Notes under the pieces: model-generated
Databases searched by the model: none
Told to the model about the DNA's origin: nothing
The model's input: only the letters and a program-made list of their open reading frames with translations
Made by a program: the position numbers and the translations under genes
From: Darksidea phi
Lineage: Eukaryota > Ascomycota > Dothideomycetes > Pleosporales > Lentitheciaceae
NCBI GenBank assembly: GCA_030770425.1
Contig: JASJFT010000007.1
Span: forward strand, 4,245 to 68,244
Direction: 5' to 3'
Length of the DNA: 64,000 bases
In this document: positions 32,510 through 40,282 of the stretch, piece after piece
How positions within the stretch are numbered: position 1 is the first letter of the stretch
Layout of the letters: each line of letters begins with the position of its first letter

Positions 32510-33538
32510 CTAGTCACTGCCCAACCGCTTCTGTTCGATCAACCTTTCGAACTCAGAGTAGACGTCCTTTGACATTGGATACGTGTGCTCCGGCGCCGGG
32601 TATGCCCGACTCTTGACCTCGGTCTTATACTCTGATATCGCTCTAAAGCTCTCTTCCCATACATTGCCGTACTGCTTGACGAACTTGGGAAGGAACCGTC
32701 CAGGCGGGAAGTATCCTAGCATATCGATTTGCACTAGCACTTGACCCGAGCAGCCGTTGCCGGCACCAATGCTTATCGTCGGAATGCTGAGTTCCTTAGT
32801 TACAAGAGCTGCAACCTCTGCAGGCACAGCTTCCATGACCATGGCATAGGCCCCGGCTTCTTGTACGGCGAAAGCATCTTCGAGCAGCTTCATTGCGGAA
32901 GCGGTGCTCTTACCCTGGACGCGAAAGCCGCCGAGAGAATTTTGTCGTTGCGGCGTAAGACCAATATGGCCGAGCACAGGGATGCCGGCAGTGGTAATCT
33001 TGGAGATGGTTGGTGCCATCTCCTTCCCACCCTCCAGCTTGACAGACTTGACACGCCCTTCTTTGATCATGCGGATAGCGGACTCCAAGGCTTGCTCGGG
33101 CGCGATCTCGTACGTTCCCATGGGAAGGTCTCCAATGGTGAAGGCACCTTTGGTGGCACGGGCCACGGACCGACAATGCAACAGCATCTCCTCCATTAAA
33201 ACCTCGCTAGTATCCTCCATTCCAAGGGCGACCATGGCCAGACTATCCCCAACCAGGATCATATCTATGCCGGCATGGTCGGCAACATGTGCGCTCGGGA
33301 AGTCGTGCGCGGTGATCATAGTAATAGGTTCATGCTTCCGGTACAGACTCTGGAGGGTGTTGATGGTAACTGGTTTGCGCGCATTGGCCGGCGCGGCGCT
33401 GAGGGGTGAATGAGAGCTCCATCGGACCTGAGCGACAGGTAACAGGGTTGGCGACGCCGACGACAGCAATGGGCGAAAAAGCAATAACGACGACGTTAAC
33501 CGTGAGGATGTTTGGAGCGTGTTCATCGTGGCACGCAA
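32510..33538 (-). CDS. panB: 3-methyl-2-oxobutanoate hydroxymethyltransferase (ketopantoate synthesis)
   Basis: Intronless, 342 aa. The enzyme adds a hydroxymethyl group from methylene-tetrahydrofolate to 2-oxoisovalerate, the first committed step to pantothenate and coenzyme A. Conserved stretches are ITMITAHDFPSAHVADHAGIDMILVGDS (metal and substrate-binding DS), EEMLLHCRSVARA, GTYE, VKLEGG, PVLGHIGLTPQ, VMEAVPAEV and SIGAGNGCSGQVLV. The first ~45 residues are Ser/Arg/Leu-rich with no acidic residues, as in a mitochondrial presequence, which matches the known location in fungi. A second ATG four codons downstream (33526) is equally possible. Length is normal for a fungal PanB with presequence. 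In yeast the gene is ECM31. Confidence 0.95.
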   Translation of the reverse strand: MRATMNTLQTSSRLTSSLLLFRPLLSSASPTLLPVAQVRWSSHSPLSAAPANARKPVTINTLQSLYRKHEPITMITAHDFPSAHVADHAGIDMILVGDSLAMVALGMEDTSEVLMEEMLLHCRSVARATKGAFTIGDLPMGTYEIAPEQALESAIRMIKEGRVKSVKLEGGKEMAPTISKITTAGIPVLGHIGLTPQRQNSLGGFRVQGKSTASAMKLLEDAFAVQEAGAYAMVMEAVPAEVAALVTKELSIPTISIGAGNGCSGQVLVQIDMLGYFPPGRFLPKFVKQYGNVWEESFRAISEYKTEVKSRAYPAPEHTYPMSKDVYSEFERLIEQKRLGSD

Positions 33539-34505: not shown

Positions 34506-35535
34506 ATGAGCAGCCCAAAGCGACGGATCGAGACGGACGTAGGTGATTCTGGACACAACACGATTAAGACGTGGATGAATGCTGACGGATGGCTTGCTTC
34601 TGCTTTTAGGTCATGAAGTAGGTTCAACATGCCCCCCGACACATGATCTGGTATGCTAACGCGTGCATAGGATGTACGCTAATCACGATGCACTCCTCTC
34701 AGATGCCGGTGACTGATGCATAGCAGGCTCATGAGTGACTATGAAGTCACTTTAGTCAACGACAACAGTGCGGTTGCCTACGATGCTTCTTGTGACTTTT
34801 GCTAACTGTGCCTTCAGTGTCCGTCCTGCCGCCGTCCATCCCATCCTTGTACCGACACGGTCTTGCTAACACGCTTCAGGCAAGAGTTCTACGTTCGATT
34901 CAAAGGCCCCGAAGAGAGTACGTGACCGTGCATGCTACAAACTTTGGACTTGGCTGATTGGGACAGCACCCTTCCAAGGCGGCGCGTGGAAGATTCACGT
35001 CGAGCTCCCCGATCAGTATCCCTACAAGAGCCCCAGCATAGGCTTCGTCAATCGAATATTTCATCCCAACATCGACGAGCTGTACGTTCCTCCCAAACTT
35101 GACACTAAGGCACAATGAGTGGTGGAATGGCGTGGGCAGGACACCGTTGCTAATCGTGATGCAGCTCAGGCTCCGTGTGTCTGGACGTCATCAACCAAAC
35201 ATGGTCACCTATGTATGACATGATCAACATTTTCGAGGTTTTCCTACCACAACTTTTACGATACCCCAACCCCACCGATCCACTCAATGGGGAAGCGGCT
35301 GCTCTACTGATGCGGGAGCCGAAGAGCTACGACGCCAAAGTGAAAGGTATGTGGCAGCCGCCCAAGCTACGTGTAATACCTCTGACAGACTCTAGAATAC
35401 GTAGCAAAGTACGCTTCAAAAGACGCATCCGAAGACTCGGACAAAGACAACGATGACGATGACGAGATGAGTTCGGTCGGCAGTTATGAATCTGGCGACG
35501 AAGACGAGGCAGCGGGAAACATGGAAGACATCTAG
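34506..35535 (+). CDS. UBC8: ubiquitin-conjugating enzyme E2, UBC8/UBE2H type, with microexons
   Basis: Nine exons fit: 34506-34538, 34610-34617 (8 nt), 34671-34673 (3 nt), 34727-34767, 34818 (1 nt), 34880-34917, 34967-35081, 35165-35346, 35396-35535; 561 nt, 186 aa. The product runs [33 protein letters not shown], then [18 protein letters not shown] and [13 protein letters not shown]. The active-site Cys is in SGSVCLDV. The C-terminus is acidic ([12 protein letters not shown]), as in UBE2H. In yeast Ubc8 is the E2 of the GID ligase that removes gluconeogenic enzymes. Without the 1-nt exon the frame is lost before QEFYVRF; without the 3-nt exon one residue of the conserved N-terminus is missing. 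All introns are GT-AG. Confidence 0.92.
34671..34673 (+). other. 3-nt microexon (GAT) of UBC8
   Basis: It lies between an intron ending GCTAAC-GCGTGCATAG (34618-34670) and one starting GTACGCT (34674-34726). Reading AA+G AT+G CTC gives K-M-L, which fits the spacing of yeast VMKLLMSD and human VVKLIESK. Direct splicing from AA to GCTCATG would stay in frame but drop one residue. Confidence 0.75.
34818..34818 (+). other. 1-nt microexon (T) of UBC8
   Basis: Intron 34768-34817 ends TTGCTAAC-TGTGCCTTCAG and intron 34819-34879 starts GTCCGT and ends TTGCTAAC-ACGCTTCAG. Each has its own branch point. The codon ATG of NDN-M-QEF is assembled as A + T + G from three exons. Confidence 0.75.
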
Positions 35536-37501: not shown

Positions 37502-39445
37502 TCATTCGCGAGAAAGCTGGGCCAACAGCTGGTCAAGCTCCTGCCAGTTGTCTGCGGCTACTGCGAACTTGCGGTGCTTTCGTGATAGTACGTGCTTAGT
37601 CTCAAGTTAGCCAAAGTCAGAGTCAGCTTAACCGAAGGGTACATACCTCATCAAAGTCATTAAATTTCTCCCTGCAGTTTTCGCAGTAGCCGGGCTTGAG
37701 CTCTTTCTCAACGGTCCTCCTCCTGCGAATGACTGGAGCTTTCCGGGCCTGCCTCTCGGCCTCGATGGAATCCTCGCGTATATATCCGAGCGTCTCCTGC
37801 GCCTTGCGTTTGGCTGCTCGCGTAGGCTGCGCAAAGTCCCCGTTCAATGCCGCCCTCATATCGTTCATCACCGATGAGTGCCCACTGTTGGTGTTCGCTG
37901 ACGGAACATTTTTTTCTAAGACCTTCCTCTTCAACTGATTCACTTCTTTGCTCTGTCCTGCGCGAGCGCCCGGGGCGGCAGAGGTGGATGATATCATCTG
38001 AGACCGGATGGCGGAGGTTATGTTGGATTGCTGCAGTCCAGAGGCAATGGGCTCACCGCCAATGAAACGAGGCATAGTACGAAGACTGGCTTGGGCACTG
38101 CCAAACATTGGAGGCATACCATCGGTGTTCGCTCGCTTCGGGGGGACCATGTTCGAGGCCTCGAGAGGCTTGTCTCCCTCCGTCTTGATAGACAGCGCTG
38201 GGGCGCTAGGACGTCGAGCGAGGTTGTTGATTTCTCCTAGAGCACGCTTCTCCTCCATAGCCGTCGCGGCTCGAGTACGCGGTGCCGCCGCCGCTGCTTT
38301 GCGTGCCCGCTGCGCTTCCTGTTCTTCTTGTTGCTGTCTCCGAGCATGATCACGATCCTCCACGAATGGGCACTTTCCAGTGCCAGAGATACGGAACTGC
38401 GGCCACTTGCCGTCTTCCTTCTTTGTGACCTTGGAGTACTCTCGAACCATGACTGGTCGTGTGGTCTCATCCATGTCGTGGACGTAAATGTAGTAGCCAC
38501 GCAGCGGAATCAAGTCCTGCGATGCGACTGAGTAGTCGCGGTCGTTCAGCTTCTCATTCTCGAGCAGTTTCTGGAGGTCGGCTTGGCGGCCCCTTGCCTG
38601 GGGAACAGCAGCAGCGGGACGCGTCCCGTGATGCGGTGCCTCTTCCCCAGTAGCTGTATTGAACATGGCATCCATCATCCGTTGAAGCTTGTCCACAGGC
38701 CATATTTTCATTCCCAGGTCCTTGGCTTTGTACAGAATATCGCCATGATTGTTGTTCTTCTGGAGTGCGGTATCGAAGACTGATTTCTTGGACTCGAGCT
38801 GCGCTGGATTGACGGTGCCCTTAGCAGTCGACGACGAGCTGGAGTCAATATCGGCGGGAATAGGACGCGCGGTGATAACATGGGTGACTTCGCGAGAGAA
38901 GAACTTGGCTTCGCGCTACATTGAAGTTAGTGTTGCGATTTGTGATAAGCAGATGCACTCACAGAGCCCAACGCATAGGCCTGCTTCCAGATTTTGTACT
39001 TTAGATCCTCCGGAATGCTCTCGAAATAGAAGACAAAGCGCGGGAACTGTGTGCGATAGTGCTTCTGCCATTGCCGGATCTGATCAAGATTCTCATTCGC
39101 AGCTCGCTGAGTCCTGTCGACAGGCTTCAGTGCAGGTTTCTGGCCCTTTTCATCTCGAGCTGCCTCCAGCTTCCTGGTCAGTGCCGTAGTTGGAGCCCCA
39201 CTCCTGCGGACAAGTCCAGAACGGCGCGACTCAGCATCGTCGACCTCGACCATGGGCTTCTTTGCGGGGGGTTGTCCATACAAGAGGTCGCGTTGCTCAC
39301 TGGCATGGGAGCGCTGGCGCTTCCCACCCACGGCAGTCGCGCGTAACGGCGAATTGGTGGCATTCTGGAGGTTTGCGAGGGGCACGCGACGGTTGGCCAT
39401 GGCGTCGATGACCTGGGGCGAGGGCGGGACAGCTACTGCTGCCAT
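37502..39445 (-). CDS. DBF4: Dbf4/Dfp1-type regulatory subunit of Cdc7 kinase
   Basis: Three exons (39445-38963, 38915-37647, 37594-37502), 614 aa. Activates Cdc7 to fire replication origins; the Aspergillus homologue is NimO. Motif N, a BRCT-like region, is FPRFVFYFESIPEDLKYKIWKQAYALGSREAKFFSREVTHVI. Motif M includes GYYIYVHDMDETTRPVMVREY and WPQFRISGTGKCPF. Motif C, a CCHH zinc finger, is assembled across the last intron: PGYCENCREKFNDFDE then HVLSRKHRKFA. Near the N-terminus RRVPLANLQN fits the D-box RxxLxxxxN, in keeping with APC/C-driven turnover known for Dbf4. An ATG at 39400 (MANRRVPLANL) is an alternative start. Alanine/arginine-rich linker in the centre. Confidence 0.92.
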
Positions 39446-40282
39446 GCGAAGCAATACCTGCGGCCGAGGGGACGGAGAAGGAGGACGAAGGTGGAGGGGC
39501 AGGTTAGGGTTTCCGAGCTCTGACGCGACGTTACGGGCACGTCGACGTTTCTTCAGCAACGCGAGGCAGCCATACTGGGGGTGGTGGAGCTCTGAGGGTG
39601 TGTGAGAGGGCGGACCGGGCACAATTGAGCGAAAGAAAGGCGGGTCTTGGTTCTGTTGCTCTTGTGTCTCGGGCTGGGAAGCGTGAGTTCCAAGGTTTGT
39701 TGTGTGGCTGGCATGAAGTGAACCATCACGCGCAATTAGCGCGGGGCCCGTGCATCGCCTGTCGCGATTTGCTACGGCAACCCAGCGAGCATCCTGGTCA
39801 CATCAACATGCCATGGTCATGGTCATGGTCAGGGTCACGGCCGTGGTGATGGCGATGGCGATGGCGATGGCGATGACGATGGCGATGACGATGGCGATGG
39901 CTATGGATAGCCGTGGGCGCGAGATCTGACTTAGTTTCCCTCCCTATATACAATCAGATAGTCTCCTTTGCCGAACGCGATACAGGGACGCTCCTTCCCT
40001 AGTACGTCTGCCCGTTCTTCTCCTTATCCGAGGGAACAACGAGCATCGATATATCAAACAGCCACCAGTTGGCCGTCAATGTTCAGCCTGCCGTTGTTTA
40101 CAAGAGCCATGCGACAGGTGACAAAACCGAGCTCGGGGTCTCCATGACCTCATTGATGAATCCCAGGGCTGTCTTTCACCGGGCGCCCAATGCTCGCGCC
40201 ACTCTATGCAAGACCACACTCAAAAGCCCCTCCTCAAGCCCTTCCTTTCCGTGACCAAAACCACCCAAACTTACACTCAACC
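39446..40282. other. divergent promoter region with hexanucleotide array
   Basis: Lies between DBF4 (-) and the orphan coiled-coil gene (+). It contains the ATGGCG array listed separately; otherwise nothing recognisable. Confidence 0.5.
39808..39906. repeat. ATGGTC/ATGGCG hexanucleotide array
   Basis: About 16 units of six bases: first ATGGTC copies (near 39811-39830), a degenerate stretch, then GATGGC and GATGAC units to about 39905. It lies outside the coding exons, about 360 bases upstream of DBF4 and 380 upstream of the next gene. Confidence 0.85.

Follow-up and report, generated by a model that had tools for sequence, protein, structure and literature searches.

A one-nucleotide exon in the UBC8 gene of Darksidea phi, probably common to Pezizomycotina

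The UBC8 gene of Darksidea phi almost certainly contains a nuclear protein-coding exon of a single nucleotide, T 34818, whose flanking introns 4 and 5 would be removed in turn and which appears, from the gene models of relatives, to be old and shared by most Pezizomycotina. The gene lies in the window, the 64,000-nucleotide stretch of contig JASJFT010000007.1 to which all coordinates refer, in a host genome of 51.35 Mb (477 contigs). It has nine coding exons (33, 8, 3, 41, 1, 38, 115, 182 and 140 nt) and eight introns, all GT-AG and 49-83 nt long, and its spliced product is an open frame of 186 amino acids. Three exons of this one gene are very small (exons 2, 3 and 5, of 8, 3 and 1 nt). To either side, the minus-strand ORF at 32510-33538 presumably encodes a ketopantoate hydroxymethyltransferase of the panB type, and the ORFs at 37623-39622, also on the minus strand, presumably a Dbf4/Dfp1-type regulatory subunit. 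The gene is built as follows (slashes mark splice boundaries throughout):

34506..34538, + strand, exon 1, 33 nt
34539..34609, + strand, intron 1, 71 nt, GTAGGT..TTTTAG
34610..34617, + strand, exon 2, 8 nt, GTCATGAA
34618..34670, + strand, intron 2, 53 nt
34671..34673, + strand, exon 3, 3 nt, GAT; AA/GAT/G encodes Lys-Met
34674..34726, + strand, intron 3, 53 nt, GTACGC..AGCAG
34727..34767, + strand, exon 4, 41 nt, 3' end AACGACAACA
34768..34817, + strand, intron 4, 50 nt, donor GTGCGG, branch site TTGCTAAC, acceptor CTTCAG
34818..34818, + strand, exon 5 (putative), one nt, T, second base of the Met codon in NDNMQEF
34819..34879, + strand, intron 5, 61 nt, donor GTCCGT, branch site TTGCTAAC, acceptor CTTCAG
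34880..34917, + strand, exon 6, 38 nt, 5' start GCAAGAGTTC
34918..34966, + strand, intron 6, 49 nt
34967..35081, + strand, exon 7, 115 nt
35082..35164, + strand, intron 7, 83 nt
35165..35346, + strand, exon 8, 182 nt, contains SVCLDVIN
35347..35395, + strand, intron 8, 49 nt
35396..35535, + strand, exon 9, 140 nt, acidic C-terminus and stop

The protein scores 136 bits against the ubiquitin-conjugating domain PF00179 (cut-off 27) and its nearest PDB sequences are 8pmq and human UBE2H (8pjn and 2z5d are also in the set), identifying it as an E2 of the UBC8/UBE2H type, presumably a partner of the GID/CTLH ligase. The 8pmq sequence (titled Ubiquitin-conjugating enzyme E2-24 kDa), which we take to be yeast Ubc8, belongs to the same E2 family and has the same Met (NDSMQEF), while human UBE2H, again of this family, has Leu at the position. 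Among the best 120 of 5720 protein matches, the named relatives of highest identity (94%) are Ascochyta rabiei and Paraphaeosphaeria minitans, presumably both of the order Pleosporales; by this single protein the host is a filamentous ascomycete close to that order. Within the D. phi genome the gene has one close copy, itself; a search for a second found none, the remaining matches being at most 48% identical.

The initial annotation described two full introns around a single T at 34768-34879, each with a branch site and a CTTCAG acceptor, and this description is exact: introns of 50 and 61 nt, both carrying TTGCTAAC and CTTCAG, are each complete and leave one base, T 34818, between the AG of the first and the GT of the second. 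With exon 4 closing in phase 1 (A) and exon 6 opening on a third codon base (G), their join is one base short unless T is used; A/T/G then forms the Met codon of the conserved NDNMQEF, whose frame needs the T. If T is left out the product reads NDNSKSST and translation ends after 65 amino acids. Enumeration of every splice path with no more than two GT/GC...AG introns, each of at least 30 nt, across 34727-34917 yields 196 different in-frame mRNAs, and NDNMQEF occurs in exactly one, the T-exon path, in agreement with the earlier statement that only A + T + G restores the ATG of this motif. Scoring against human UBE2H is given no weight here, since the 25 best paths lie close together (558 to 546) and the T-exon path, at 557, falls one point under a path that lacks NDNMQEF.

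The enumeration also bears on a stwintron, in which one intron is nested in a splice signal of another and no true exon lies between them. Such units likewise consist of two consecutive introns and are known in Hypoxylaceae and other fungi, according to the available text of the reports (PMC9024468, PMC12403724), but this reading is exceedingly improbable here, since T is retained as a coding base and the nested two-step paths give NDNSQEF, NDNSAQEF and similar sequences, none of the 196 mRNAs containing NDNMQEF by that route. The [D1,2] stwintrons of Pezizomycotina, as outlined in their reports, resemble introns 4 and 5 in being two small consecutive introns removed stepwise, but there the donor of the second intron is split, whereas in UBC8 one coding base would stand between the introns (PMC5639578, PMC6616335).

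Secondly, the residue encoded across the junction is conserved at the same place in relatives at the protein level. Three protein searches (best 120 of 5720, 5499 and 5348 matches) together gave 312 different proteins; the second and third scored residues from 40 on, which lie past the junction, so that the junction had no effect on their ranking. The proteins were split by hand into 62 environmental ORFs (59 from contigs no longer than 3,272 bases, P0074 on 7,280, P0250 on 5,261, and P0071 with no length), 10 outgroup proteins (two plants, Saitoella, Dipodascopsis and six Lipomyces) and 240 named genome models counted as Pezizomycotina from their names, ten species, as well as Saitoella in the outgroup, having been looked up; related species recur and the records are not independent. 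M stands at the junction in 58 of the 62 environmental ORFs (51 MQE, 7 MSE), the other four lacking the upstream side (one of them begins at MQEF), in 9 of the 10 outgroup proteins (P0001 has L), and in 14 of the 240 named models by a strict count that excludes six NDNSMQE or NDNSLQE models. In the whole-protein search M is found in 44/44 environmental versus 10/66 named sequences, and among first appearances in the second and third searches (residues 40 on) in 7/8 versus 3/96 and 7/10 versus 1/78, respectively.

As controls, intron 7 is right in 239 of the 240 named models, intron 8 in 233 and intron 6 in 187, figures favoured in the second and third searches by the scoring of the downstream part and, for intron 6, lowered partly by models that drop or shift exon 6; in the whole-protein search the corresponding counts are 66, 66 and 64 of 66. 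Intact NDNM[QS]EF is missing from 226 of the 240 models, and 61 are without any NDN-like segment, the error not being confined to this codon. The 14 intact models may reflect intron loss in some lineages, or curation. The environmental ORFs are probably transcript-derived because they are intronless across the junction (58 of 62, 44 of these also from the N-terminus), while one, P0175, has a genomic look. In near relatives, the intronless ORFs P0002-P0005 (92-95% identical) uniformly read NDNMQEF, supporting the T exon as the only one of the 196 in-frame paths that would match their protein. Genomic DNA of relatives was sought among genome contigs, where 156 pattern matches included no relative, and viral contigs gave two weak loci (L010, L011) with short matches.

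Two other ways of splicing the region can be judged against these ORFs. A single 117-nt intron (34768-34884, acceptor GGCAAG) is GT-AG and in frame, would give NDNK-FYVRF with Lys in place of Met-Gln-Glu, and is how 14 of the 240 named models are written; it is nevertheless very unlikely, as this form is seen in none of the 62 environmental ORFs, 58 of which have MQEF or MSEF, and it disregards two branch sites and two CTTCAG acceptors. An exon 5 longer than one base, such as one of 31 nt (34818-34848, donor GTACCG) that inserts about ten residues, also keeps the frame, and some relatives' models do have insertions here, but this version leaves an intron of just 31 nt and all 58 environmental ORFs reading through the junction are free of insertions; we give it almost no credence. 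The one-nucleotide exon remains the preferred reading.

The wrong gene models themselves retain footprints of this exon. R replaces M in 7 named models, 21 have NDN-S-x-QEF (a donor displaced by 4 nt, GTNN/GT, would fit), 14 have NDNK-F and 18 skip exons up to a PF.GG segment, and these groups can be read as ways to compensate one base; the remaining wrong models have longer insertions or lost segments. Where translation runs on after NDNM, 24 of 27 named models continue with TNN and then GNN, as in T/GTNNG (binomial P 1.5e-24 on the residue background, the records not being independent), and three do not fit (P0070, P0235, P0292). A V before QEF or SEF, which is predicted by AG/T/G if intron 5 is spliced out but intron 4 retained, appears in 24 named models, 7 of them with LT (a possible branch site CTNAC) within seven residues upstream, compared with 9 LT in 513 dipeptides elsewhere in insertions. 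Other routes to V before QEF exist, for example in P0162, which falls into both the run-on and V groups and is better explained by run-on.

A third footprint is the translation of both introns. Under a rule requiring S first, R last and 28 to 57 residues, eight models qualify and seven decode to exactly one placement of YAG/T/GTNNG, versus 0.36 expected by shuffling, both introns having a candidate branch site and sizes of 47-56 and 52-67 nt. These seven represent some four independent lineages and come from Parastagonospora nodorum, Fusarium pseudograminearum (two records), F. culmorum, F. flagelliforme (two records) and Aspergillus niger. No such placement exists in the remaining model, from Claviceps africana (P0173). 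Through footprints of these several kinds the relatives' gene models show the arrangement A-intron-T-intron-G. Models P0295 and P0305 show the T-skipped frame, which in UBC8 here reads NDNSKSST. SKSS, GKSS or GKNS segments occur in six public models (P0222, P0289, P0295, P0298, P0305, P0310) and correspond to exon 6 read in the wrong frame when the one-nucleotide exon is skipped, as in the SKSST of the skipped UBC8 product.

The same models bear on an assembly error, a base lost next to a normal 112-nt intron. One missing T ahead of GTGCGG would restore the frame as well, but among the 240 named models, which come from other assemblies, 226 lack intact NDNM[QS]EF and seven decode to AG/T/GT; since the same phase conflict recurs in models from many other assemblies, a base error has only a minute chance of being the explanation. 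In addition, the internal motif CTRAC-YAG-N-GTNNG occurs 8 times in 528,000 nt (both strands, own site counted), or by chance about 0.0017 times per 112 nt.

The footprints of the one-nucleotide exon span seven classes. That of T/GTNNG is found in Dothideomycetes (for example Plenodomus, Hortaea and Aureobasidium), Eurotiomycetes (Aspergillus tamarii), Sordariomycetes (Beauveria bassiana), Leotiomycetes (Diplocarpon), Lecanoromycetes (Kuettlingeria) and Coniocybomycetes (Sclerophora), and the V footprint extends to Pezizomycetes (Morchella snyderi, Geopyxis carbonaria), one species having been looked up per class (for Dothideomycetes Parastagonospora, from the full decode) and the class names of the other footprint species being our assumption. 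One of the three T/GTNNG misfits, Lasallia (P0235), is also from Lecanoromycetes. In Orbiliomycetes (class looked up for Orbilia) both models (P0298, P0304) are wrong and reveal no T by the tests used. Outside Pezizomycotina, the proteins of Saitoella and seven of Lipomyces and Dipodascopsis are intact. The exon is thus very probably common to Pezizomycotina, and an origin in the stem of this group fits the distribution but is not proved by it. The common ancestor of Pezizomycotina dates back hundreds of millions of years.

A second small exon of the gene, the 3-nt GAT at 34671-34673, behaves similarly in the models of relatives. Its Met is kept in 44/44 environmental ORFs covering this exon and present in 44/208 named models, 47 of the 208 being exactly one residue short; as the loss of 3 nt leaves the frame intact, annotation programs can pass over the exon unnoticed. 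Run-on after MKM was flagged in 30 named models, 28 of which continue with TNN and then GNN as GAT/GTNNG predicts, the two exceptions being P0015 (an ordinary variant) and P0125 (a misfit). The GAT exon is apparently conserved and frequently missed in these models.

Finally, the position of T raises the question of how its two introns are removed. Introns 4 and 5 are small, ordinary GT-AG introns for which recognition would be through intron definition. Two splice sites with a single base between them can hardly be occupied simultaneously, so the introns would be excised one after another, the ligated A, T and G forming the Met codon of NDNMQEF. The flanking donors GTGCGG and GTCCGT had been called weak, which fits the small counts available: upstream of 193 branch/acceptor motifs in 264 kb of genome, versus a control stretch, GTANGT occurs 27 versus 4 times, GTCCGT 2 versus 1 and GTGCGG 3 versus 3. 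The initial annotation had argued for ordered splicing on the ground that removal of the first intron places T next to GTCCGT; that reason is not wholly accurate, as T adjoins GTCCGT already before splicing. What removal of intron 4 does alter is the exonic context of this donor, from AGT/GTCCGT to CAT/GTCCGT. The usual exonic context before a donor is MAG, and the change adds one match to it, which would favour removal of intron 4 first. Ordered splicing in itself is plausible. Consecutive removal is argued for plants too, while the plant data, as far as the text of the two reports goes, point to the opposite order (PMC8831610, PMC4674806), the upstream intron of plant microexons tending to go last (PMC8831610). 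We infer that splicing in the form given here is constitutive in D. phi. An origin of introns 4 and 5 as tandem duplicates of one intron was considered and rejected, the local alignment sharing only TTGCTAAC and intron 5 with its middle shuffled scoring as well in 500/500 trials.

A literature search (titles and abstract openings, with few subscription papers) found nuclear one-nucleotide exons in three genes, APC11, VPS55 and CYP621A, among the matches listed, and no report of one in UBC8 among them. Mitochondrial genes are outside the nuclear spliceosome. It is in such genes, unlike UBC8, that the single-base exons of placozoan cox1 (PMC5436844) and fungal mitogenomes (PMC8208691, PMC12308204) sit, as these reports present them. 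The closest case is the Fusarium CYP621A exon, in a paper of February 2026 that calls itself the first in a fungal gene: in its available text this is again a nuclear fungal gene in which AG and GT enclose one base that gene models miss and without which a conserved motif would lose its frame, and the exon is backed by RNA reads, but the base is G and the gene a P450 known from one genus, whereas UBC8 encodes a ubiquitin enzyme and its exon is apparently present in most Pezizomycotina (PMC12940212). The one-nucleotide exon of Arabidopsis APC11 likewise restores the frame, consecutive intron removal is proposed for it, and it was tested with mutated reporters; it differs, going by the same source, in being in a plant gene, with A as the base and 422 nt of intronic sequence in all (PMC4674806). 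The one-nucleotide microexon clusters of APC11 and VPS55 are described as preserved throughout a major clade yet absent from reference annotations, as UBC8's exon appears to be, but they are in land plants (PMC8831610).

Judged from the gene sequence and the proteins of relatives, the one-nucleotide exon of UBC8 is genuine; its kind is known but the gene is new, and it is probably common to more fungi than the published CYP621A case, and the data suggest that it is ancient and routinely overlooked. A speculative and rather doubtful extension is that the exon, already there in the common ancestor of Pezizomycotina, has since been retained as an obligatory two-step splicing checkpoint: because the T-skipped product stops after 65 amino acids, the efficiency of the T step, together with the 3-nt exon, could determine how much UBC8 enzyme is made. 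A one-nucleotide exon is the lower limit of inclusion by the spliceosome, and its apparent sharing across much of a subphylum with model fungi would open to test both the handling of splice sites separated by one base and the reasons for the persistence of an exon of this size. The 226 of 240 named models without the right sequence around this codon offer a ready benchmark for annotation software.
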